IMG/VR virus record: IMGVR_UViG_3300004772_000026
Coordinates: 1 to 22,842 of that record
From: a virus
Direction: 5' to 3' (one strand)
DNA length: 22,842 nt
Position 1 is the first letter of the stretch, and every line of letters begins with the position of its first letter. The notes under the pieces were generated by a model that saw only the letters and a program-made list of their open reading frames with translations, was not told the origin of the DNA and did no database searches. The translations under genes were made by a program, and so were the position numbers. Of this stretch, positions 5,424 to 19,725 are shown in pieces.

Positions 5424-6338
5424 TTACGAGGTCGGGAAGTTGCCGTAAATCGCGCGGTAGTTGTAGTAGCCAAAGCTGTAACGTTCGTAGCCCTTAACCA
5501 GCAGGTTATCAGTCTGGAAATCAACCTGCATATCAGTTTCGAACGGGATACGCTCCATGTAGCTCAGACCGTCGATGTTGGTCAGAAGGAACCAAGCATA
5601 AGCTGAGGTCAAGAAATCATTGACCATGTAGCCTTCTGACAGACCGCCCGCCGTGGTAAGAATGGCGTTCACGTCGTTGTCAGCCGTGCCAGGCCGAAGC
5701 TCCGTCTTCATCAAACGAATGGCAACCGGCTCAAGCTGCGGCGGGATAACCAACTTACGACCGCGAGCAAAAATCTTCAGACCAGCTTGGTCTTTGAAGT
5801 TCGTGCGGACAGAAATCATCGAGTTCAGCAAAGTGGCTTCGTTCAAATCAACCTGAGTTGACGGGGTATTGGCAATCGTGCCGCCGTCAATAGGATGTGC
5901 CGTGGAGCAAAGCGCAACACCGTCACCGCCAACCGCGTTGTTGTAAGTCTGCGCCGTGTTGAGGATAGACGCCCCGTAAATTTCTTTGGTCTGGTGAAAA
6001 GCTTCAATCAGGCCCAAGTTAGACGGGTGAAACTGCGTCTTATAGATGTTATCGTCAATTGCCTTGCGGGTAATGGCGTAACCAAGACCAATTTCAGTGT
6101 GTTCCTGGTTATACACATAACGCTCACCAGCGCCGTTGTCGAAGCCAGTCTGACCACCTTCCTGCTTAAGCTGGGCAAGACCCAAGAAGCGCAGTTCCGC
6201 CGTGCGTTCAACCGCCAGCTTGGAATCGTGCTTCGTGAAAATCTTGTCATACTGAGACGGAATCATCTCATACTTACCTTCAATCCCCCGCAGGCCGGGA
6301 AGCAGAAGGTCTTTAATGGCACTAAGATTAACAGCCAT
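5424..6338 (-). CDS. Major capsid protein (HK97-fold type)
   Basis: A 304-residue protein lacking low-complexity regions. It has an N-terminal MAVNLSAIKDLLLPGLRGIEG and a middle part with YVYNQEHTEIGLGYAITRKAIDDN. A P-domain-like AGLKIFARGRKLVIPPQLEPVA is followed by the C-terminal MERIPFETDMQVDFQTDNLLVKGYERYSFGYYNYRAIYG. This C-terminus (beta strand plus aromatic YERYSFGY..YRAIYG) is typical of Mu gpT-like and related HK97-fold major capsid proteins. It forms the icosahedral shell, assembling on the scaffold. A GGGAG SD lies nine bases from the ATG. It lies between the decoration-type protein and another virion protein, as expected for a head module. Its ~300-residue length is normal for the group and shows no separate N-terminal delta domain, consistent with the separate scaffold-like gene upstream. 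Confidence 0.9.
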   Translation of the reverse strand: MAVNLSAIKDLLLPGLRGIEGKYEMIPSQYDKIFTKHDSKLAVERTAELRFLGLAQLKQEGGQTGFDNGAGERYVYNQEHTEIGLGYAITRKAIDDNIYKTQFHPSNLGLIEAFHQTKEIYGASILNTAQTYNNAVGGDGVALCSTAHPIDGGTIANTPSTQVDLNEATLLNSMISVRTNFKDQAGLKIFARGRKLVIPPQLEPVAIRLMKTELRPGTADNDVNAILTTAGGLSEGYMVNDFLTSAYAWFLLTNIDGLSYMERIPFETDMQVDFQTDNLLVKGYERYSFGYYNYRAIYGNFPTS

Positions 6339-8027: not shown

Positions 8028-8899
8028 TATCGGCTCCCACGTTGAATTTTCAATTTCTGCTTAGCGTATTCTTCCGGCGTCATTTTGTTCAACCGAGCAA
8101 TGTCCATTTCCTCGCTTGTCAAGCGCATGGTCCGGCTGCCAGGCGTCCCACGAGTGACCGGTGCCGCCGCAGGTGCCGGTTGCTGCGCAGCACGAGGCCG
8201 AGCAGCTTGTTCCATGGGATTTTCTGCTGCCACAACCGACACAGGAGGAGCAGGCTTTTTAATCTTCAACGTGGTTTCAATGGCGTCAAAATATTCGTCT
8301 GTGTCTGGGACGATACCTTCTGCGGTCGCCAAGTTATGCGCCGCCACCATACGTTGGAAATTGCGGCTGTCTTGAGCATATTCAGGATGCGCACGAACCC
8401 ATGACGCCGAACGAGGAGACAAGCGTGAAGCCAATTCCTCAACAGGGTCTTGAGTGCTGCGTATTTCTTGCGGAGGCTTGCTCCGCATGGCTTCTTCGCC
8501 GTTTCGGAGTTGAAGCAGCTTAGCTTCAGCGCCAGACATTTCTTTCTGGATTGCTGCCGCTGTCTGGTAATCCCCCGCAGACATTGCCTCAGCATACCGT
8601 GCCACGTAAATTTCAGCATTGCTTTCCAAAGTGCTAATTGCACTACGGATAAGCTGCAAATTGCTCGAATCTACTTCATTTTGGCGTTGGGCTGCTTTTT
8701 GTTCAGCTCTAAACCGGGCGGCTTTTTCCGCTGCAAGCTGCCGTTTTAGTTCTTCAACTGCGGCGGTTTCGTCAATTCGTTGAGGTTCTTCTGTTGCAGG
8801 AGCAACCTCTCTGACTTCGACAGTGGCTTCGCCCGTTTCTGACGGTTCCGTTTCAATTTCGACGGAAACATCTTTGGTTTCATCTGTTTCTTCGGTCAT
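8027..8899 (-). CDS. Putative capsid scaffolding protein
   Basis: A 290-residue protein with a strongly acidic N-terminus (MTEETDETKDVSVEIETEP), a long charged coiled coil at about 45-130 (EELKRQLAAEKAARFRAEQKA) and a Pro/Ala-rich linker. A short basic C-terminal segment ends in YAKQKLKIQRGSR. This composition (acidic, highly helical, small basic tail) and the place between portal and major capsid are characteristic of scaffolding proteins, which bind coat subunits and are removed on maturation. The start ATG at 8899 shares its A with the TAA of the GroES-like gene and has AGGG seven bases upstream. An upstream in-frame GTG at 8905 is less likely. Motif-level proof is not possible because scaffolds share little sequence. 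Confidence 0.75.
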   Translation of the reverse strand: MTEETDETKDVSVEIETEPSETGEATVEVREVAPATEEPQRIDETAAVEELKRQLAAEKAARFRAEQKAAQRQNEVDSSNLQLIRSAISTLESNAEIYVARYAEAMSAGDYQTAAAIQKEMSGAEAKLLQLRNGEEAMRSKPPQEIRSTQDPVEELASRLSPRSASWVRAHPEYAQDSRNFQRMVAAHNLATAEGIVPDTDEYFDAIETTLKIKKPAPPVSVVAAENPMEQAARPRAAQQPAPAAAPVTRGTPGSRTMRLTSEEMDIARLNKMTPEEYAKQKLKIQRGSR

Positions 8900-9291
8900 T
8901 ACCACACCCTATCCGGTTGGTCGATACGCCCACGCACGTTAATATCTTCAAGAACGCGGCACAATACGCCGTTCACAGTAATGCTCCACCCATCAGACGG
9001 GCGGAAAAATACCCAATCGTCCAATTTAATGCTCATTCCTGAAAACCAGCCGTCGCCATTATCAACAAATGCGCCAAAACCCGTTTTAACAATCAAACCT
9101 ACCTTAGATTGCACACGGTCTTCGTCTCGATGAGTATCAGGAAGATACAAACCAGATTTTGTCTTTTCAGGACGAAGGTAAACTGCAATCAAAACTTGAT
9201 TATTGAACAGTTCAACTGCGCTGATATCTCCCAAATCTGTTTTTAGCTTTGTCGCAGGGTCAACGTCATGCACCATTGTCATGAACGGCAT
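8899..9291 (-). CDS. Phage GroES-like co-chaperonin
   Basis: A 130-residue protein that reads as a Cpn10/GroES fold. VLIAVYLRPEKTKSGLYLPD at about 33-52 contains the mobile-loop-like TKSGLYLP segment. It is followed by VGLIVKTGFGAF (64-75), then a roof-loop-like region and DDWVFFRPSDGW. The C-terminal strand reads GVLCRVLEDINVRGRI. GroES caps GroEL; phage versions such as T4 gp31 direct folding of large capsid proteins. The start at 9291 has GGAG seven bases upstream. A longer frame to 9447 would overlap the neighbouring gene heavily and adds an unrelated hydrophobic stretch. At about 130 residues it is longer than host GroES (about 97), as other phage versions are. It lies directly before the scaffold-like gene, which supports a role in capsid assembly. 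Confidence 0.8.
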   Translation of the reverse strand: MPFMTMVHDVDPATKLKTDLGDISAVELFNNQVLIAVYLRPEKTKSGLYLPDTHRDEDRVQSKVGLIVKTGFGAFVDNGDGWFSGMSIKLDDWVFFRPSDGWSITVNGVLCRVLEDINVRGRIDQPDRVW

Positions 9292-9304
9292 GTAAAAACT
9301 CCGG

Positions 9305-9505
9305 TTAGCGTTGGTCTGTGATTGATTTAGTTTCGTCGCACAACGAAAGAGCAAGTCGGAGCCCTTCAATGGCTCCGACTTTCCAGCAATAATCAGAAAA
9401 ATCAGCAATACTATGCCGATTCGCAATGTGTTCCATGCGTTCGACAATAGCGTCGCTGATAAATTTCCTGATTAGCGCATCATAATGCTGGGCTTGCGTT
9501 AGCAT
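9305..9505 (-). CDS. Small phage protein of unknown function
   Basis: A 66-residue mostly helical protein (MLTQAQHYDALIRKFISDAI, later CWKVGAIEGLRLALSLCDE) with no motif I recognise. The ATG at 9505 shares its A with the TAA of the upstream DUF551-like gene (TAATG), and AGAGG lies seven bases before it, so coupling is likely. The open frame continues upstream to 9532, but that would extend into the neighbour without an SD. It is one of three small genes sitting between the Gly/Lys/His-rich protein and the GroES-like gene. Nothing in the sequence indicates a function. Confidence 0.7.
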   Translation of the reverse strand: MLTQAQHYDALIRKFISDAIVERMEHIANRHSIADFSDYCWKVGAIEGLRLALSLCDETKSITDQR

Positions 9506-9974: not shown

Positions 9975-10928
9975 TCAACCTCCACCATACTGTTTAATCT
10001 TTTCCAAACGCCCCCGACCGCCGCCTGCTCCTGCGTCGATAGGGTATTCAGCACGGCCACCAGACTTGCGGCCCATAGCCGCGCCAGGCGGCATCATTCC
10101 AGGCCCTGCGGGCGGCATGGGCATTCCAGCCGGCATAGGCATGCCAGCCGGCATAGGCATGCCAGCAGGCCCTGCCGGCGGCATCGGCATAGCAGGACGC
10201 GGCTGCATCTGTGGCATGCCCTGGTCTTGCCCCTGGCCGGCCCGTGGAGCGCCGATAATGATGTTGATGTTGGTCTTGCCCTTGGCACGCCCGCCATCCT
10301 TGCGGGCCATGCGGTCGCCCGTTGGGCGCGTGCCCTGCATTTCGCCATCGGACACACTTCGCGCCTTGCCGCCCATGCAACGTTCGCACCGGCACACTTT
10401 ATGGTGAATCTCACCGCCATGGGCCTTGCCCGTCAGCGCCTTGGGCTTGACCATCTTATGGATAAGCACACGGTCCTGAGCTTCGTCTGTGTGTGCTGCA
10501 CCGCCCCGCGCACGGTGCGTCAGTTCACTGCCCATGAAAGACGTGTTCAACGGGCCACCACCCATTTTGTGGGCACGCCCGCCTTTTTTCATGCCGCCGA
10601 CATGCTCATTGCCGCCGTCCCGGTATTCGTTGGCAATCTTCACATCCCGGTTCAACACGGCGTCAATCGGCGGCATTGCCTTGCCACCCGCCTTTCGAGG
10701 CTTGCGCCCCGCATGCATCTTGCCCTCTGCGCCTTCTGCCTTCAAAGCCCCGCCATGTTTGAATTGGCGCTTACTGACTGGGCGCATGCCCGTCTGGGCG
10801 TAGGCATTCAAAGCATCAGGCGGCGTGTAACCAGATGCGTCAATCGGTGCACCGCGAGGGTCAGCGCCAATCATGCGCGCAATCTTGCTTCTCATTGCCT
10901 CACGGGCCAGACGGGATTCTTTAGACAT
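9975..10928 (-). CDS. Gly/Lys/Met/Pro-rich basic repeat protein, possibly virion-associated
   Basis: A 317-residue low-complexity protein. The N-terminus (residues 1-50) is helical. Residues about 55-230 carry spaced K-x-G-G-[RK]-A or related motifs (KHGGAL, KAGGKA, KKGGRA, KDGGRA, and KSGGRA near the C-terminus). A CRCERC cluster near residue 178 could bind metal. Residues about 245-295 are Met/Pro/Ala/Gly-rich with tandem PAGMPM units, encoded by three 18-bp repeats at 10117-10170. HAGRKPRKAGG also appears in nearly the same form in the protein at 3658-4137. The ATG has CGGAG seven bases upstream and lies four bases after the ART gene. A long frame runs antisense (9879-10967) as a shadow of the high-GC codon pattern. 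Binding to packaged DNA is a guess from charge. Confidence 0.75.
   Translation of the reverse strand: MSKESRLAREAMRSKIARMIGADPRGAPIDASGYTPPDALNAYAQTGMRPVSKRQFKHGGALKAEGAEGKMHAGRKPRKAGGKAMPPIDAVLNRDVKIANEYRDGGNEHVGGMKKGGRAHKMGGGPLNTSFMGSELTHRARGGAAHTDEAQDRVLIHKMVKPKALTGKAHGGEIHHKVCRCERCMGGKARSVSDGEMQGTRPTGDRMARKDGGRAKGKTNINIIIGAPRAGQGQDQGMPQMQPRPAMPMPPAGPAGMPMPAGMPMPAGMPMPPAGPGMMPPGAAMGRKSGGRAEYPIDAGAGGGRGRLEKIKQYGGG
10117..10170 (-). repeat. Three tandem 18-bp repeats encoding PAGMPM units
   Basis: Three consecutive 18-bp units (10117-10134, 10135-10152, 10153-10170; core GGCAT[AT]CCAG), two differing by one base and the first by two. They lie in frame within the Gly/Met/Pro-rich protein at 9975-10928 and encode repeated PAGMPM. 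Copy number could vary by slippage. Confidence 0.85.
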
Positions 10929-10932
10929 AAAA

Positions 10933-12009
10933 TTACTCCGATTGCGGGCGCTTCAAAAGCGTTTTAGTTATATTTACAGCGTTTGTGGCATACTTGCCAG
11001 GGTTTGTCAAAGACATTGCGTGGTGCAACACGGGATTCTTCTGTGTGTTAACCACTTCGCCGCCCCGTTTATACCGGTGTTTAATGTCAATAATGCTGGG
11101 GTCAAAAATAACGTGATTGTGGGTAGGGTTGCCGGTTGGGCCACGACTGTTAGCGTCTAGGTAGCGAATGCCATGGATGCCTGCCTCCTGCAAAACGGCG
11201 GCAGCAGAGGGTGAATTTTCCCCATAACTGGAAAGAGCATGATGCAAATCTTTGCCGGTGGCTTCAACGCCAACATTTGCAGTTCTAGCAACATGTTGCA
11301 CAACAGGATTTTGCCCACTCAGCGGTTTATCCCAATCCAAAAAATGTTCTGGATTGGCGTTTACGCGAACGTGGTAAAGGTGCCCTCGTCTAGATGTTAT
11401 TCTTTCATATTCTTTTTGCATTTCTTTTATTTTTTCTTTTAAAACATCTTTATCTAAATTACGCCCTTCATTGTTTAACCACGTTGCTTTTTCATTATAA
11501 ACTTTTCTGTCTGCGGCATCAGTTGTATTTTTTTTATAACTTTCTGCTGTTGCTTTGTTTTGCGCAACATACAGCCCATGCCCATACGCTTGCGCGCCTT
11601 CGCCGGTTCCAATTTTATCCGACCGAAAACGCCCCAACGGAAAATCTTTCACCACCGACGCACCTTCCGGCACCGGTTGACTCGCCAAGACATGCTCTTG
11701 CTGCCCTGTGGGATGTTGAATCAATCGCTCCGCAGGAAATTCGTGCGGCGTGCCATGCCAGGCATCAAACCCCGTTTCATTTGCCGGCTCTACATCTCCC
11801 CCAGACGCAAACCCCATCGGAGAACCACTAACATGAACCCCCGGCAACATTGACGCAGGATGCTGCCCTACAGCACCGCCACCGGCCAGCATGGGCATGG
11901 CAGCCGAATAGGGGGCTCTATCCCCCGGCAACGGGCCAATTGCCCTACCAAGGCCCTTGGCAACCATAACGGCGCGTTTTACCGCGCGGTGAGGGTCATC
12001 AAATATCAT
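10933..12009 (-). CDS. ADP-ribosyltransferase-like effector (ART polyvalent-protein type)
   Basis: A 358-residue protein. Residues about 80-310 look like an ADP-ribosyltransferase domain of the kind found in phage polyvalent proteins. AWHGTPHEF (83-91) holds the H-G-T motif, and KIGTGEGAQAYGHGLYVAQ (132-150) holds the conserved glycine-rich strand and Tyr147. GIHGIRYLDANSRG (277-290) and HNHVIFDPSIIDI (297-309) form the closing strands. The third catalytic residue cannot be named with confidence. Compared with relatives I remember, about 35 residues separate HGTP from the GTGEG block, and a Lys/Glu helix at about 185-205 is encoded by AT-rich DNA, so both look inserted. The ATG overlaps the portal stop (ATGA) with GGAGG seven bases upstream. 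Being encoded beside the portal suggests it could be packaged and injected to modify host proteins, which is inference. Confidence 0.75.
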   Translation of the reverse strand: MIFDDPHRAVKRAVMVAKGLGRAIGPLPGDRAPYSAAMPMLAGGGAVGQHPASMLPGVHVSGSPMGFASGGDVEPANETGFDAWHGTPHEFPAERLIQHPTGQQEHVLASQPVPEGASVVKDFPLGRFRSDKIGTGEGAQAYGHGLYVAQNKATAESYKKNTTDAADRKVYNEKATWLNNEGRNLDKDVLKEKIKEMQKEYERITSRRGHLYHVRVNANPEHFLDWDKPLSGQNPVVQHVARTANVGVEATGKDLHHALSSYGENSPSAAAVLQEAGIHGIRYLDANSRGPTGNPTHNHVIFDPSIIDIKHRYKRGGEVVNTQKNPVLHHAMSLTNPGKYATNAVNITKTLLKRPQSE

Positions 12010-14294
12010 TGCCGTGCCTCCGCTTGGGCCACAATCGGTTGCGCAATCGGCGCACCTTCAGGATGGCGAATAATTTCTTTGGCCAATTGGAGCAGTTCCA
12101 GTTTCTCGCGGCTCTCCCGGTCTTGCGCCCGGTTCTGAGCCTCAGATGCAGCTACACGGTGCTGCACTTGCACCCCTGCCTGCTTGGTCTGCGCGTCTAA
12201 CAACCGCGCCTGCGCGGTCATTTGTTCCGCATTAGACGGGCCTTCTGGTGCTGCGGAAGCCTCTTTTTGATACACCGCCGCGTGCATCTGTGCCTTGGCA
12301 GCTTCAGCTTTGGCCTTCATTGCCTTGGTGTCAGCTTCCTGCTTTTTAATGTTCAGCGTTGCAATTTCTTTTTGGACAGCCGGCGGCAATGCCTGTTGCT
12401 TTTCTGGCGAAGCCATAAATTGCTCAGGATTGCTAAATCCAATCGCCGCCAACGCCGCCTTGTCAATCGCAATGGGGTCATACAACTGCGGGCTTGCCGC
12501 CTGGAGTTGTTTTAGCGCCATAATCTTCATGACCCGCTGACTATGAGACGCGGTGTTCGGGTCTGCCTGCGGCACCAACTCACAATCCGTCAAAGCTTTA
12601 AGGAAATTATTCTCGTCCCATTGATACGCGGGCTTTTTGTTTCGCTGCCAAAAACTCTCAGGATGCTCCCGGAACACTTTCACCAGCAACTGAAACTCCA
12701 ACGCCTGCGCAGCATGCAAGCGTTTGTGAACAGAGTTCATAATTTTGGTGGCTTGCTCAATCATCGCTAGAGTTGTGCCAACAGGCGCATCAGCTCGGCC
12801 TTCACCGACCTGTTGCTCCGACGTGCCGCCAATCCGCATGCCCGTGGTTGCCATGTCGCCAACCAACGCCATTAGGGCTTGGGACGGTTCCTTATACGGA
12901 AGCGGCATGACAGCTTGATTAATTGGCATACCTCCCGTCTTGACTGGCGAACCGCCGCCAGGAGGGACACGGAAGATGTTGCTGTTTTGCCTAGCCCCAA
13001 CATCTGCAAACAAAAAGCCCGGAAAGTTAGAATACATTCCAGCGTCCAAAAGCTCGCGCCAAGCAGCAGTAATAGCATTAGTAGTATTACCCAAAATGTG
13101 AAGAAGCCCAATGTCATAAAAACCAAGGCCAGGAACAAAAGTATATTTGACAAAATTTTCGCGGGCTTCCGGGAGTGTGTCTGCTTTGTCATAGTTCCTC
13201 ACAATGGACAAAATTTTCTTTGACGATACGTCAATCGTCACGCGATACGGAACCTCAAGCCCCGTTACTTTGCCTTTTAGTTTATGCTCAAACCCTACAA
13301 TATCCAACTCACAATACGTTTCATAAATCTCCCGGTCCCGGTCATTGGGGTTCGATACGTTTTCCGAAATACCCTGTTGTGCCTGCTTTTCTTCCTGCAC
13401 CGCGTCCATCTTGCGTTCATGCGGCGTTGACAAATCAACATCCCGATAAACGCCAAGAATTTGCAACCGCTTGACAACCGAGGGACGCATTAGCACCCGA
13501 TGCGTTACACGACGCGCATTGCTCAAATCCGTAGCGGAATTGTTCACAATCAAATCGTCTGCATCAACCGTTTCAGAAACCGGCCTATTGCGCAAAGGAC
13601 AAAAATACACTTTCTTAAAAGCCGTGCCGCCAAAACCCAAAAGCAGCAACATCCTGTCCGTGTCTGGATAATACTCAGTCGCCGTAGCTGTAAGATAGTG
13701 GTTTAAGTCTTTTTCCAGAGCATCGGCCAATTCATCATTGCCAATCAACGCGCCGTTATTGTCATCCCTGATTTTCACCGGGCCGTCTGTGGGTAGCAAC
13801 TCCGACCTGGCGTTAGCCTGGAACCGCAGCACGGCTTCCAGCAGCAGCGGGTGACGCACCCGGCTCATGCCCTCAACAGGAGCGCCGTCGGCGGCGCCCG
13901 CAAGGCCCGGAATCTCGACCTTCAAGCCCAGCAGCTTAATGCCTTGGGCGCGGTCCTCAACCCAATCCTGACGGCTCTGCATGTCGTCGTCAATGCCGCG
14001 CATCAAGTCGTCGCTGATACGTGCTAGTTCCGTTTCACTGATATCTTCAACCAGATTGTCAAACCACCCTTTAGGGTGCGCATCCCCTCCGGCAGCTACA
14101 GGAGAACCGTCAAGCGAAATAGTAACGCTCCCGTCATCGTGCTCAATGCGGATTATATTGCCATCGTCATCCGTTACAGGTTCATCCGGGCCTTGCGTGT
14201 CATCGAGCAAAACCTGTGCAGGGTCTGGCTGGTTCAGAGGCTCTGCCTCATTTTGCAACCGGATATGGGCGTTGGACGGGATAAGACCAGACAT
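12006..14294 (-). CDS. Portal protein
   Basis: A 762-residue protein with the style of P22-like portals. Residues about 80-170 (DISETELARISDDLMRGIDDD, then RHPLLLEAVLRFQANARSEL) form the entry region, and YCELDIVGFEHKLKGKVTGLEVPYRVTIDVS is near 330-360. A wing and crown part follows (NNAITAAWRELLDAGMYSNFPGF, then VGDMATTGMRIGGTSEQQVGEGRADAPVGT). The last ~120 residues, about 640-740, are a long charged Ala/Lys/Gln coiled coil. Portals form the dodecameric DNA channel at one vertex and work with the terminase. P22's portal is 725 residues, so the size fits. SD AAGGA lies seven bases before the ATG, and terL ends 10 bases upstream. The stop overlaps the ART start. Confidence 0.9.
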   Translation of the reverse strand: MSGLIPSNAHIRLQNEAEPLNQPDPAQVLLDDTQGPDEPVTDDDGNIIRIEHDDGSVTISLDGSPVAAGGDAHPKGWFDNLVEDISETELARISDDLMRGIDDDMQSRQDWVEDRAQGIKLLGLKVEIPGLAGAADGAPVEGMSRVRHPLLLEAVLRFQANARSELLPTDGPVKIRDDNNGALIGNDELADALEKDLNHYLTATATEYYPDTDRMLLLLGFGGTAFKKVYFCPLRNRPVSETVDADDLIVNNSATDLSNARRVTHRVLMRPSVVKRLQILGVYRDVDLSTPHERKMDAVQEEKQAQQGISENVSNPNDRDREIYETYCELDIVGFEHKLKGKVTGLEVPYRVTIDVSSKKILSIVRNYDKADTLPEARENFVKYTFVPGLGFYDIGLLHILGNTTNAITAAWRELLDAGMYSNFPGFLFADVGARQNSNIFRVPPGGGSPVKTGGMPINQAVMPLPYKEPSQALMALVGDMATTGMRIGGTSEQQVGEGRADAPVGTTLAMIEQATKIMNSVHKRLHAAQALEFQLLVKVFREHPESFWQRNKKPAYQWDENNFLKALTDCELVPQADPNTASHSQRVMKIMALKQLQAASPQLYDPIAIDKAALAAIGFSNPEQFMASPEKQQALPPAVQKEIATLNIKKQEADTKAMKAKAEAAKAQMHAAVYQKEASAAPEGPSNAEQMTAQARLLDAQTKQAGVQVQHRVAASEAQNRAQDRESREKLELLQLAKEIIRHPEGAPIAQPIVAQAEARQ

Positions 14295-14304
14295 TCAAAA
14301 TTCC

Positions 14305-15906
14305 TTAATACAACGGGGCGAGCGGTTTTCCGATGTGTTGCTTAGACCGCTCTATCTCATCAATTCGTTCAACGGTGCGTTGCAGCATTCCAATCTCTCG
14401 CAAATGCCGCAACGCCATCGACACTGTATCAACCAAGTCATCGTGTTTGCCTTTTGGAAAAACAGCAACTTGGTTGATAACCATCTGCGCCCAATCCTTG
14501 TTTGGCGCGTATATCATGCCCTCTGCAAACAAATGTTGCACGGAATATAACCGCGCGAGTTTATCTGTAGAACGCGGGTCTTGTAACTGAACAGAAAAAT
14601 CTTCGTTATAATACAGCCTTCTTAGCTCTTGTGCAACGCTAATTCCTGCGGCCTTGTTTTCAATTAGCAATTTGTCTACTTTAAAAAATTTGCACGTCTT
14701 GGCAACTTTTATAACCAAGTCGTGAAGCGCCAGCCGCTCCTGCCATCCCATGCACAGCATTAGGCGCGGGGCCCCATCTGCATCTTCCGCAGAGCCGCTA
14801 TGCAACCTACCTCGACCATCTACACTCCGGGTAGACCGCGCCGTCTGGTCTGCTGAAAACAGCCCCCATATTGTTAGAGCGCTGTAATCATTTTCTTGTT
14901 TTTCGGTGTAAGCCGTATCCAAAGAAGCAATGACAAAATCAAATAGCGGGTAATCGTCTGCCTCCCATAACTGCCACCAGTCAGGGTCAATAACGCCGCC
15001 GCCGCGCGGTGCTGGCAACTGCGCAAACTGCCCTGCCGTAGCGTAAGGCCCCATGATTTTTTCTTCACGCTCCACCACCCACAGCGGGAACCTGGCGGGG
15101 AACAGCAGCTCACCCACCTCAGTGCGAGGGTCTTCAAACCCTAGCCGCGTTGGTTGAGCCCGTGTCGGGTCATACCGCATAGGCAACATTAAATGGTCGT
15201 AACCAAGGTCTTCATCGAGAATAACGCCGGACACGTCTCCTTCGTGCAATCGCTGCATAACCACAACGATGGCGCTAGTTTCTGGATTGTTCAGGCGGGT
15301 TGGGACAGCTTCTTTGAACCACCGTATGGTTGTTTCTCGTTTCTGTTCCGATTCGGCCCCTTCAACGCTATGCGGGTCGTCAATAATAACGCGGTCGCCA
15401 CGATTACCCGTAATAGAGCCGGCAGCTGCGGCTTGCCTAAATCCTGTATCTGTGTTGTCAAATTTAATTTTCTGGTTTTGGTCTGTAGTTAGTTTGACAT
15501 GCGGCCAGCGGCTTTTATACCAGTCGCTTTCGACTAAACGCCGCATGCGCATATTGTCGCGGACGGCAAGGTCTTGTGTATGCGAGGCGCACACATACCG
15601 CATGTGTGGCAGATTGCACGGCCCCCACTCCCAAGCCGGCCAGAACACGCTGACGGCGAGGCTTTTCATGGTGCCTGGCGGAATGTTTACCAACAGCCGA
15701 TTGTAATTATCAACGTCATCCGTAATGGCTTCGAGATGCATACAGATGGCGTCAATGTGCCAACCGTGGATATATGGTTGCGATGGCTCAACAATATGCC
15801 ACGCCATTTGAATGAACGTTGCAAGGCTGTCACGACAATCGGCGCGGTCCAATTCTAGCAGCGTTTGCTTTGCGTCAATTGTTTTGCCGTCAATTTTGAC
15901 TAGCAT
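14305..15906 (-). CDS. terL: Terminase large subunit (packaging ATPase and nuclease)
   Basis: A 533-residue protein. The ATPase domain has a deviant Walker A NIPPGTMKS at 74-82, with Met where Gly is usual, as seen in many phage terminases. Walker B is VIIDD at 173-177. The nuclease domain has its acidic metal-binding residues in SLDTAYTEKQENDYSAL (Asp330), IENKAAG (Glu416) and KHDDLVDT (Asp489, Asp490 and Asp493). A hydrophilic ~28-residue stretch at about 351-380 (TARSTRSVDGRGRLHSGSAE) interrupts the nuclease fold between two strands and looks like an insertion. The ATG overlaps the previous gene by 17 bases. Seven small genes separate it from terS, which is unusual. It is confidently identified. 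Confidence 0.95.
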   Translation of the reverse strand: MLVKIDGKTIDAKQTLLELDRADCRDSLATFIQMAWHIVEPSQPYIHGWHIDAICMHLEAITDDVDNYNRLLVNIPPGTMKSLAVSVFWPAWEWGPCNLPHMRYVCASHTQDLAVRDNMRMRRLVESDWYKSRWPHVKLTTDQNQKIKFDNTDTGFRQAAAAGSITGNRGDRVIIDDPHSVEGAESEQKRETTIRWFKEAVPTRLNNPETSAIVVVMQRLHEGDVSGVILDEDLGYDHLMLPMRYDPTRAQPTRLGFEDPRTEVGELLFPARFPLWVVEREEKIMGPYATAGQFAQLPAPRGGGVIDPDWWQLWEADDYPLFDFVIASLDTAYTEKQENDYSALTIWGLFSADQTARSTRSVDGRGRLHSGSAEDADGAPRLMLCMGWQERLALHDLVIKVAKTCKFFKVDKLLIENKAAGISVAQELRRLYYNEDFSVQLQDPRSTDKLARLYSVQHLFAEGMIYAPNKDWAQMVINQVAVFPKGKHDDLVDTVSMALRHLREIGMLQRTVERIDEIERSKQHIGKPLAPLY

Positions 15907-16263: not shown

Positions 16264-16583
16264 TAGGCGTTTCCTTTCACTTCTGAAAAAAACAATGGAG
16301 CATTTGCCAAAAACGCGCAAACGCTCATTAATTGCACTTCATTTTCTGTTATGTCATTGGCGCGGCATTCTTCAACAAATTTAAGAACTTCACTCATTAT
16401 ATCGTTCAACGTTGCAAACGAATCCCGCAACCTACCTGTGGCGATAGCCTGGGCGAACGCGGGGGCGTGGTGCTCTATGGCTGTGGCCAGAGCCTGCCCG
16501 GTAGGCCGCAAGCCTTTGTTTGCCGGCAAGGCGGGGCAATTTTTCGTAATGTTCTCGAACAATTTTGCTTGGTCATGCGTCAT
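16263..16583 (-). CDS. Small phage protein of unknown function
   Basis: A 106-residue mostly helical protein starting MTHDQAKLFENITKNCPALP, with PTGQALATAIEHHAPAFAQA and NDITENEVQLMSVCAFLANA later. I do not recognise a family. The ATG at 16583 has AAGGGA seven bases upstream and overlaps the upstream gene's end by 11 bases. A frame start at 16607 would push further into that gene. Its TAA overlaps the next ATG, so it is one link in the chain of coupled small genes between terS and terL. No membrane segment or catalytic motif is evident. Confidence 0.7.
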   Translation of the reverse strand: MTHDQAKLFENITKNCPALPANKGLRPTGQALATAIEHHAPAFAQAIATGRLRDSFATLNDIMSEVLKFVEECRANDITENEVQLMSVCAFLANAPLFFSEVKGNA

Positions 16584-16734
16584 CGTGCTTTCCCTTGTCC
16601 CGTTCAATTCGCCATAGCGCGCGCATTTCGCGCAATTCGTCCGCGGTCACTGGAATAGCCCGCGCCTCCTCAAGGGCGCGGGCCTCGCGTGCTTTTTTTG
16701 CTTCGTCCCGCGTCGGCGGTAGCCTATGTTTCAC
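16573..16734 (-). CDS. Small charged protein whose 5' end lies in a parS-type palindrome
   Basis: A 53-residue Arg/Glu/Lys-rich helical protein (RDEAKKAREARALEEARAIP, then LREMRALWRIERDK). Two GTG starts are possible. GTG at 16734 (MKHRLPPTRDEA) has GGAGG nine bases upstream and is preferred. GTG at 16743 would give the N-terminus MFHVKH, but the SD is then only three bases away. Either start falls within or beside the perfect 16-bp palindrome at 16727-16742, which is also the 3' end of the upstream gene (reading VSRET then stop). The reading frame through the palindrome is dictated by it, so this gene may have acquired its start around a binding site. Function unknown. Confidence 0.6.
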   Translation of the reverse strand: MKHRLPPTRDEAKKAREARALEEARAIPVTADELREMRALWRIERDKGKHDDA

Positions 16735-17167
16735 GTGAAACACCCTCCTCCCGCATGGCGTGCAATTCGTCCGCCAGGCGCAGCAATAGCTCCCGCGTTG
16801 CTTCGTAACCGTAATTATCAACAATCTGGAAGAACGTCCAATCTGCAACGGTGTGCAAAAATTCGTCCGGTCTCCATCCCGCATCGACGACACGAGCCTG
16901 CAATAAATGCAAATGCGGGTCTATTGCGTCAGCGGCCTGGTCGTCGCGGTCAAAACCGTCTTGTGGTGCAGCGATAGACGATGCGTGTTTAGCAGCTAGC
17001 AAGTCGTCCATCTCTCGCACCCAGCCGGGCGGCATTGGGTGCTTGCCGGCCATGACGCGCTTGAGCGTCGCTGTATTGACGCCGAGCGCGCCAGCTAGTC
17101 GCTGCATGGCGCTAGGGTCAGCGCCGTAAAGCTGCATTGCAACATCGTCAATGTCAGTATACAACAT
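16724..17167 (-). CDS. Small protein with a possible N-terminal DNA-binding helix-turn-helix
   Basis: A 147-residue protein. Residues 20-41 (AMQRLAGALGVNTATLKRVM) look like a helix-turn-helix (G-V-N-x-x-T recognition helix), followed by GKHPMPPGWVREMDDLL. A central, more acidic part (SIAAPQDGFDRDDQAADAID) leads to a C-terminal helical half (RPDEFLHTVADWTFFQIVDN). The first 60 residues resemble a minimal phage regulator. The ATG at 17167 overlaps the preceding TAA by one base and the ribosome site AGGGC lies about eight bases upstream. Its last five codons and stop (VSRET) are formed by the palindrome at 16727-16742. The regulatory function is inferred from the helix-turn-helix only. Confidence 0.65.
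   Translation of the reverse strand: MLYTDIDDVAMQLYGADPSAMQRLAGALGVNTATLKRVMAGKHPMPPGWVREMDDLLAAKHASSIAAPQDGFDRDDQAADAIDPHLHLLQARVVDAGWRPDEFLHTVADWTFFQIVDNYGYEATRELLLRLADELHAMREEGVSRET
16727..16742. promoter_or_regulatory. Perfect parS-type palindrome
   Basis: The 16-bp sequence TGTTTCACGTGAAACA is identical to the bacterial chromosomal parS consensus bound by ParB. It spans the 3' end of the gene at 16724-17167 (last codons VSRET) and the 5' end of the gene at 16573-16734. Whether ParB binds it here is not known; no ParB gene is visible in the window. Confidence 0.8.
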
Positions 17168-17313
17168 TATCGTGCCCTACCACTGCGAATAGCATACATT
17201 TCGACTGCGAGATTATGTTGCGCCCGTGCAATCCGATTGATTGCGTTTGACAACACAACCAATCCGAGCCCGTTTGCAACACATGCAACATACAGCAGCG
17301 TTTCAAACCACAT
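17167..17313 (-). CDS. Small membrane protein of unknown function
   Basis: A 48-residue protein with one hydrophobic segment at about 3-24 (FETLLYVACVANGLGLVVLS) followed by a basic C-terminal half (NAINRIARAQHNLAVEMYAI). The layout fits a single-pass inner-membrane protein. The ATG at 17313 has GGAGG five bases upstream, and the gene overlaps the end of its neighbour by 11 bases. An ATG at 17325 has no SD, and the longer open frame to 17484 lies entirely over another gene. Its TAA shares a base with the next ATG. Membership of a lysis-type family (holin) is possible by shape but not supported by any motif or neighbour. Confidence 0.6.
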   Translation of the reverse strand: MWFETLLYVACVANGLGLVVLSNAINRIARAQHNLAVEMYAIRSGRAR

Positions 17314-17488
17314 CTTCGCCTCCATTGCGACTTCGCTCGATTTTATCCACTGGACTGGCGCGGCCGCAAGCGCCAAATGCGCGAACCCACATCGCGGCAT
17401 ATGCAGCACACCAAGCCTTGCCTTTTTCGCTTTGCAGCCATGCGTCGCGGTTTTGCGCCGCCTGGTGTAGTTCTGGCCAGACAATCAT
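17303..17488 (-). CDS. Small phage protein of unknown function
   Basis: A 61-residue protein with several Trp and Ala residues (MIVWPELHQAAQNRDAWLQS, then WCAAYAAMWVRAFGACG). The ATG overlaps the terS stop as ATGA, and its stop lies inside the next gene, so both junctions support it as a coupled gene. No SD stands out beyond terS sequence. I see no recognisable family. It is the first of seven small genes separating terS and terL. Confidence 0.65.
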   Translation of the reverse strand: MIVWPELHQAAQNRDAWLQSEKGKAWCAAYAAMWVRAFGACGRASPVDKIERSRNGGEDVV

Positions 17489-17970
17489 TCCGCTTTAACG
17501 TCCACCAGCGCCGCCCGGAGCTGTGCCCGCGCTTCGTCATCAAGGCGTCCAACGTCAATCGTTGCGACTGCGGTTTGAATAGGCCCTCCGTCACGGCCAG
17601 TAAGCTCAATCGCCTGCTTGTCACCGTATTTCTTTGGCGCAAGTTTAGCCGCAACCCATTGCCGCGCCCATATTTGCAATTTAACAACATTTACAGTCTC
17701 AGGCGTGGCTTTATCGGCCATATCAATTAATGACTCAATAATTGCGTCCTGTTGTGCTTCCCGTGCGCCCGCGATTATTGCCTTAAAAGCGGGGTCGCGC
17801 GCCATGCGCAAATATACTTCATCACGATTTAACCCCGGAATGAACGCGCAAGCCTTTTCGACTGACAAGCCCGACACGAGACCTGACCGCAACGTTTCCA
17901 CGTTGTCAGGATTGTCAAGAATCAGGCTCCTAGTTTTAGGTCGTCCGATGTGTTTGGTATTTTCTGCCAT
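17485..17970 (-). CDS. terS: Terminase small subunit
   Basis: A 161-residue protein. The N-terminal half has a helix-turn-helix-like segment: GLVSGLSVEKACAFIPGL at about 30-47, then NRDEVYLRMARDPAFKAIIA, followed by a helical linker (AREAQQDAIIESLIDMADKA). The C-terminal block APKKYGDKQAIELTGRDGGP is a familiar signature of small terminases, in which KYG, K and GRDGGP recur. Small terminases recognise the packaging site and stimulate the large subunit. The upstream 68-base gap holds a near-parS palindrome and a TTGACT hexamer. The SD is weak (GAAAG). The stop overlaps the next gene (ATGA). terL lies 1.6 kb away rather than adjacent. Confidence 0.85.
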   Translation of the reverse strand: MAENTKHIGRPKTRSLILDNPDNVETLRSGLVSGLSVEKACAFIPGLNRDEVYLRMARDPAFKAIIAGAREAQQDAIIESLIDMADKATPETVNVVKLQIWARQWVAAKLAPKKYGDKQAIELTGRDGGPIQTAVATIDVGRLDDEARAQLRAALVDVKAE

Positions 17971-18011
17971 GAGCTTTCATTACCAAATTACGCACCCAAA
18001 AGCAAGAAACC

Positions 18012-18027
18012 TGTTTCATGTGAAACA
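18012..18027. promoter_or_regulatory. Near-parS palindrome upstream of terS
   Basis: TGTTTCATGTGAAACA differs by one base from the site at 16727-16742. It lies in the 68-base gap between the 97-residue gene and terS, with a TTGACT hexamer at 18027-18032 (leftward) beside it. It may be a second ParB site or an operator on a terS promoter, although no matching -10 is visible. Confidence 0.65.
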
Positions 18028-18038
18028 GTCAATTGCGT

Positions 18039-19310: not shown

Positions 19311-19486
19311 ATTGGCACCTTAACATCATTGACGCAGGTGGCACCAAGCGTGCCACCCAGGCTTATCCTACCCTCCACGCGGCCATGCAGGCTTGGCTAG
19401 CCTGCATCCGTGGGGGGGACATCACCAGCGCGCAGCTTGTGGATTATGATGGTGTGGAGCGCGCGAAATGGTCGAAATGGTGGTAG
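19307..19486 (+). CDS. Small GTG-start protein of unknown function
   Basis: A 59-residue protein not obvious unless a GTG start is allowed. GTG at 19307 overlaps the upstream TGA (GTGA), and a G-rich stretch provides a weak SD. It reads MNWHLNIIDAGGTKRATQAY at the start, has TLHAAMQAWLACIRGGDIT in the middle, and ends KWSKWW. The hydrophobic and aromatic distribution resembles small soluble proteins; no motif is recognised. The downstream XRE gene begins inside its 3' end (19468), so the reading frames overlap by 19 bases. Coding status rests on the two coupled junctions and the lack of stops. Confidence 0.6.
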   Translation: MNWHLNIIDAGGTKRATQAYPTLHAAMQAWLACIRGGDITSAQLVDYDGVERAKWSKWW

Positions 19487-19725
19487 ATGCGCCCGCGCTG
19501 CGGGCCTGGCGTATAAATAACCGTATGACATGCGAGCAGGCCGCAGCCCTGCTAGGCATTAACCGCAGGACATACGAGGGGCTGGAATCGGGCCGATATA
19601 GCCGCTCGCCGCTGTGGGGAGCGATAGCCCGTATAATTGGCCTTTTGGGGGGGCGACAGCCCCGTAGGAGGGCCGTAGAGGTATGCCGGGGACCTAGCAG
19701 CACTCGCCCCGGCCCGAGCCCATAA
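19468..19725 (+). CDS. XRE-family DNA-binding regulator
   Basis: An 85-residue protein. Residues about 8-60 form a small Cro/C1-type helix-turn-helix: ALRAWRINNRMTCEQAAALL (10-29), then GINRRTYEGLESGRYSRSPL with the T-Y-x-G-L-E-x-G-R recognition helix, then AIARIIGLLGG. The C-terminal 25 residues are Arg/Pro-rich. It would bind operator DNA and repress or activate phage promoters; the paired promoters of this cassette or the leftward operon are plausible targets, which is inference. The ATG at 19468 has GGAG eight bases upstream; a second ATG at 19477 would start after the same site. It is the last gene of the rightward cassette and faces rusA convergently. Confidence 0.75.
   Translation: MVEMVVDAPALRAWRINNRMTCEQAAALLGINRRTYEGLESGRYSRSPLWGAIARIIGLLGGRQPRRRAVEVCRGPSSTRPGPSP

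Follow-up and report, generated by a model that had tools for sequence, protein, structure and literature searches.

Chromosomal-type parS palindromes recur at terminase and late genes of a tailed-phage family and are putative loading sites for host ParB

The ParABS system with its parS sites is the main bacterial chromosome-segregation system, and parS on a phage raises the question of which protein would read it and for what benefit. We analysed the whole IMG/VR record IMGVR_UViG_3300004772_000026, a linear tailed-phage sequence of 22,842 bp (the window), in which a first-pass annotation had pointed out two parS-type palindromes, one perfect and the other one base off.

Two parS palindromes among the packaging genes of the window

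Both palindromes were recovered in a motif scan with the 16-bp consensus of chromosomal-type parS, tGTTNCACGTGAAACa (PMC7022226). Site 1 (16727-16742) reads TGTTTCACGTGAAACA, a perfect palindrome with 0 mismatches, and site 2 (18012-18027) reads TGTTTCATGTGAAACA, with 1 mismatch; no strand was assigned to either. No further site with up to three mismatches was found in the 22,842-bp window. The chance expectation at this threshold was 0.14 for the window, and far lower for sites 1 and 2 as found, in agreement with the earlier view that a perfect 16-bp match is hardly due to chance. The sites do not lie in the parAB or origin region of a chromosome; the record is that of a phage with terminase genes, and no parA or parB domain was detected in it.

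The main genes of the window are all located on the minus strand. They encode an Sf6-like terminase small subunit, TerS (17485..17970; phrog_1482, 4e-23; PF20901, 4e-22), the terminase large subunit, TerL (14305..15906; phrog_38, 1e-79), a portal protein (12006..14294; phrog_1216, 9e-27), a GroES-like co-chaperonin (8899..9447; PF00166, 3.8e-8) and a Mu gpT-like major capsid protein (5424..6338; weak Pfam match). The capsid protein is the marker that defines the phage family used here, and the GroES-like gene is a syntenic family marker whose synteny extends to HTVC027P, among others. The HTVC023P-type pelagiphages (HTVC023P, HTVC027P) have homologues of the capsid, portal, GroES and TerL genes in the same order, which makes the window a distant member of the HTVC023P-like clade, with 40-42% identity in the capsid and about 30% in TerL. 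HTVC027P also resembles the window in having a parS-like site in its terS-terL interval, and the published genome papers on HTVC023P-type pelagiphages that were searched do not mention parS. Additionally, the window contains an 85-aa HTH gene of the Cro/C1 type on the plus strand (19468-19725), opposite to the main genes, and a 317-aa protein rich in Gly/Lys/Met-Pro repeats (9975-10928, minus strand), of which some relatives (L066, L120) encode a homologue.

Site 1 lies in the terS-terL interval and was correctly described as shared by the end of one gene and the beginning of another. It forms the final codons of a 147-aa HTH protein (16724..17167, minus strand; PF13560, 2.5e-6), encoding its last five residues, VSRET, followed by TAG. 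Inside the site there is an in-frame GTG at 16734, preceded at good spacing by the SD sequence GGAGGAGG; this GTG is likely the start of the next, small ORF (16573..16734, minus strand), a start that we infer from the SD sequence, because the ORF stays open further upstream. Site 2 is located within a 68-nt gap (17971-18038), directly upstream of terS as had been noted, at a distance of 41 nt from the TerS start codon (17970).

Two near relatives, L123 and L124 (99% identity in TerL, 96.7% in DNA), retain both sites, and they are the only close relatives that lend support to the window's own two sites. In both of them site 1 is TGTTCCACGTGAAACA, changed at a degenerate parS position, and site 2 is a perfect parS in L123 and the TGTTTCATGTGAAACA variant in L124. 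The differences are confined to positions of known parS variation (T/C at 5, C/T at 8). Loss of the sites with the encoded residues kept, which the first-pass annotation had named as evidence against its reading, was not seen in L123 and L124, a weak test at 3.3% divergence. Since the divergence from these relatives was too recent to show constraint, the viral collection was scanned.

Recurrence and placement of parS in viral contigs

Scanning the collection for TGTTTCAYGTGAAACA yielded at least 120 stretches, and 85 of the 120 among the matches listed contained the perfect palindrome. When the whole collection was scanned for two composition-matched control palindromes, 20 and 26 stretches were obtained. 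Among the matches listed, 44 of the 120 parS contigs had family genes for terminase, portal or capsid, versus none of the 46 control contigs (Fisher p 6e-8); unexpectedly, many of the parS contigs turned out to be distant relatives of the window phage. A second parS variant, TGTTCCACGTGGAACA, was likewise found in at least 120 stretches, with family genes in 32 of the 120 listed and the site often upstream of terL.

An unbiased sample was obtained by retrieving loci by TerL rather than by parS (n = 219, 1.81 Mb). With up to one mismatch allowed, parS occurred 52 times in these loci, versus 0 for 60 shuffled palindromes. On the basis of the control palindromes in both the whole-collection scans and the TerL-sampled loci we rejected a chance origin of the sites. 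We concluded that, in the control regions of the family's terminase and late genes, this exact 16-bp sequence is found far more often than chance would allow. Its presence was patchy, with parS in 19/80 and 14/80 loci of two TerL samples, both seeded with parS-bearing phages, and in 2/29 TerL-bearing contigs of bacterial genomes. As most family members lack the site, parS is not essential to the packaging module. The TerL tree required 14 changes of parS state, at least 12 of them on well-supported branches. In another family, phrog_2 terminases (L112, L036, L029) also have parS just upstream; one member served as query in this search, the alignment of three phrog_2 terminases being too divergent.

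Within 2.5 kb upstream of terL we found 14 of 20 and 23 of 29 sites (expected 3.3 and 9.8), and inside terL none in the TerL-sampled loci (expected 4.2 and 7.6). The usual place in the HTVC027P-like TerL clade was 20-150 nt before terL. In a clade nearer to the window, whose freshwater-type TerL is 46% identical, the sites, 2-5 in number and all perfect, occupied the terS-terL interval or a position immediately upstream of terS. The number of perfect copies in one phage reached five, and in L025/L066 five were scattered over the terS-terL interval. This interval was barely alignable between relatives, and the 16-mers were nevertheless kept. Copies within one genome had only the 16-mer in common and their flanks were unrelated, so that we rejected a duplicated repeat. 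The flanks of apparently orthologous sites were ~60% identical with the site itself intact, a contrast that is somewhat overstated because the sites were chosen by matching. Window site 1 and the site of L339 lie within coding ends, and other sites in promoter-like gaps just before terL. A second hot spot was found at roughly a dozen loci, where the site follows the stop codon of the capsid gene at a distance of 1-60 nt.

The region before terL had further features. Just before the terL start of L214, L215 and L219-L233, a block GCCATGTTTCTGACAAATAAT and a AGGGGCCCC motif were observed in parS-bearing and parS-lacking members alike; these elements had no match in Rfam and are perhaps a packaging or promoter element. 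In L292-L297 the terS-terL interval was long, gene-poor and fast evolving, with many GGGTCCC(C) repeats.

Host-type variants and partition genes

The first-pass annotation had seen no ParB gene, and ParB and ParA domains were indeed not detected in the 22.8-kb linear fragment. Among parS-bearing viral records, the ParB-type HTH (PF17762) was detected in 0/40 (controls 9/14) and ParA (PF13614) in 0/29 (controls 14/14); most of these records are fragments, and the absence of parB is firm only for the complete ones, e.g. HTVC027P and QDWS535. PF02195 scored above the cut-off in 1/32 parS-bearing records, a 110-kb contig on which no family terminase was seen. A phage-encoded ParABS was rejected, as the parS-bearing records were without ParB HTH or ParA. 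No integrase was found in the window, which is a fragment, or in the family members tested. The Pelagibacter phage HTVC027P, with CGTTTCACGTGAAACA at 16412 between terS and terL, is obligately lytic (PMC12753301). Plasmid-like prophage partition appeared unlikely given this lytic phage and the family members without integrase. In the Alcaligenes phage QDWS535, TGTTCCACGTGGAACA is located 2.2 kb upstream of terL.

All seven bacterial genomes with contigs of the phage family encode ParB (7/7), these being genomes of the host pool and not proven hosts. In this pool, two Pelagibacteraceae genomes had a perfect parS ~2 kb from parB, and Acidisoma had CGTTTCACGTGAAACA, the HTVC027P variant, 1.9 kb from parB. 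A Porticoccaceae genome carried TGTTCCACGTGGAACA on the parB contig, and Salinisphaera carried TGTTTCATGTGAAACA, the variant of window site 2, on a contig with two other parS sites. The published parS consensus permits these variant positions, B. subtilis having TGTTNCACGTGAAACA and Caulobacter t/cGTTt/cCACGTGAAAca (PMC7022226). Different parS variants were found within one phage family, and the known degenerate positions were respected across unrelated terminase families.

The phage sites are like the chromosomal parS of the ParABS systems of B. subtilis, Caulobacter and Pseudomonas in their sequence (TGTTTCACGTGAAACA, with the tolerated variants TGTTCCACGTGAAACA, TGTTCCACGTGGAACA, CGTTTCACGTGAAACA and TGTTTCATGTGAAACA) and in their number of 1-5 copies in a small region. 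They differ from them in their location next to genes for terminase or capsid on phage genomes without parA and parB, mostly in lineages without a detected integrase. The phage-plasmids P1 and N15 have ParA and ParB genes as well as partition sites of their own. For the cyanophage Mic1 a ParABS with its own site, AAATCACCTAAGTTAGGTGATTT, has been proposed (PMC7156551). Common to these phages and those studied here are partition-type sites on the phage genome; in contrast to P1, N15 and Mic1, with own ParAB and own sites, the site found here is that of the host chromosome and ParAB was not found. Phages of the CTX-phi type exploit the host XerCD via dif-like sites, for integration by site-specific recombination. 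The likeness is a phage copy of a host chromosome-maintenance site by which a host protein would be used, whereas parS has no recombinase. Where the ParB fold has been surveyed in phages, the subject was proteins and not host-type sites (PMC12704722). In the literature covered, with preprints and most subscription papers outside its scope, no report was found of host-type parS on phages without ParB.

The putative reader of the sites and its benefit to the phage

We propose that the palindromes are host-type chromosomal parS, probably maintained so that host ParB loads on the phage DNA. Two options had been put forward at first, recruitment of host ParB and a phage regulator of the same specificity; the former is favoured by the kept consensus and the missing parAB, and the latter is disfavoured. 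Host ParB appears to be the most likely reader, because the parS consensus and its degenerate positions hold across unrelated terminase families, and because one phage family has different variants, in phages without parA/parB. None of the regulators near the window sites was common to other parS-bearing phages.

During infection, host ParB would bind the phage parS and close as a CTP-dependent clamp. The clamped ParB might then spread across the packaging locus and recruit ParA-driven positioning and/or SMC loading. Several copies, a free position within one region and an exact host specificity suggest a ParB loading platform rather than an operator. The likeliest benefit would be that replicated phage DNA is organised or positioned near the packaging start in the lytic cycle; the location of the sites next to the terminase genes suggests a benefit for concatemers before packaging. 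Modulation of late-gene transcription might be a side effect or an alternative purpose. Whether lytic phages have widely and repeatedly acquired the host centromere site at the packaging locus, so that host ParB/ParA/SMC gathers, positions or disentangles their DNA for packaging, is a broader idea that we regard as quite possible, though we would stop short of calling it probable.

If true, the chromosome-segregation machinery would be a resource exploited by lytic phages during infection, phage DNA segregation would be host-directed without any phage partition gene, and the terminase-adjacent placement would link the host segregation machinery to packaging or late-gene control. The parS variants could also serve as a sequence handle to connect uncultured phages with hosts. 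The idea is directly testable, because HTVC027P with its host Pelagibacter HTCC1062, and QDWS535, are cultured and these phages carry such sites.

The main rival retains host ParB as the reader and assigns it a transcriptional purpose, as a silencer or roadblock that would time or tune the late genes from the promoters of terL and terS and from the position behind the capsid gene. We consider this unlikely, though it deserves attention, because the sites also occupy promoter-like gaps before terL, as well as positions 1-60 nt past the end of the capsid gene and the position 41 nt upstream of the window terS. Chromosomal ParB is known to change the expression of genes near parS (PMC7022226), which counts in its favour. 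However, the five scattered copies of L025/L066 and the sites in coding ends (window site 1, L339) are unlike operators, and the capsid gene already has a strong terminator of its own.

Less probable still is a decoy, in which parS on many phage copies would titrate ParB away from the chromosome and, to the advantage of the phage, bring the segregation and division of the host, or its SMC loading, to a halt. Phage copy number multiplied by 1-5 sites could outnumber the chromosomal sites, and phage sites are perfect matches. A decoy would need no fixed place, yet the sites are concentrated around the terminase and late genes, and a single site per genome is common.

It is very unlikely that a phage-encoded protein with parS specificity, such as TerS, an HTH regulator or an unrecognised ParB-like protein, reads the sites. 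TerS and HTH proteins are encoded close by, and many phage genes have no assigned function, but the motif and its variants equal bacterial parS, the sites are found next to terminases that belong to unrelated families and the ParB HTH was found in none of the 40 records. The 147-aa HTH protein next to site 1 is unlikely as a common reader, since tblastn gave no match to it in the other parS-bearing loci (L003-L122), and it was rejected on this result.

The hot spot after the capsid gene touches on a known RNA, Mu-gpT-DE (RF03012). L601:5409-5468 matched its covariance model above the curated gathering score, with the parS palindrome as the variable arm; the same arm was again the palindrome in L560:4597-4653 and L046:3705-3761, both below the curated score, and contained TGTTCCACATGGAACA in L416. 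L369:1008-1066, downstream of the capsid gene, matched below the gathering score, and the window had no match. A role of the palindrome as an RNA hairpin or terminator with only incidental likeness to parS would agree with these arms, with a parS RNA foldable into a 6-7 bp hairpin and with the terminator-like score of site 2, but it is scarcely credible and was rejected, as folding was weak (ordinary energies, z -0.07 and -1.1), composition-matched palindromes were absent from 1.8 Mb, the exact letters were kept beyond mere pairing and the strong terminators after the capsid gene were separate hairpins, independent of parS.

Some sites were paired. L016, of another phage family, has two parS pairs (5525 and 5551, 12130 and 12154) with 24-26 bp spacing, the first pair between head and tail genes, and L215 has a similar pair with 24 bp spacing before terL. 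GC skew, used to see whether the sites mark a replication origin, showed no clear switch in HTVC027P and two contigs. Only in QDWS535 (L489 / OK172329.1:47934), where the parS variant falls in the annotated ORF 61, is the minimum of the cumulative GC skew close by, 534 bp away.
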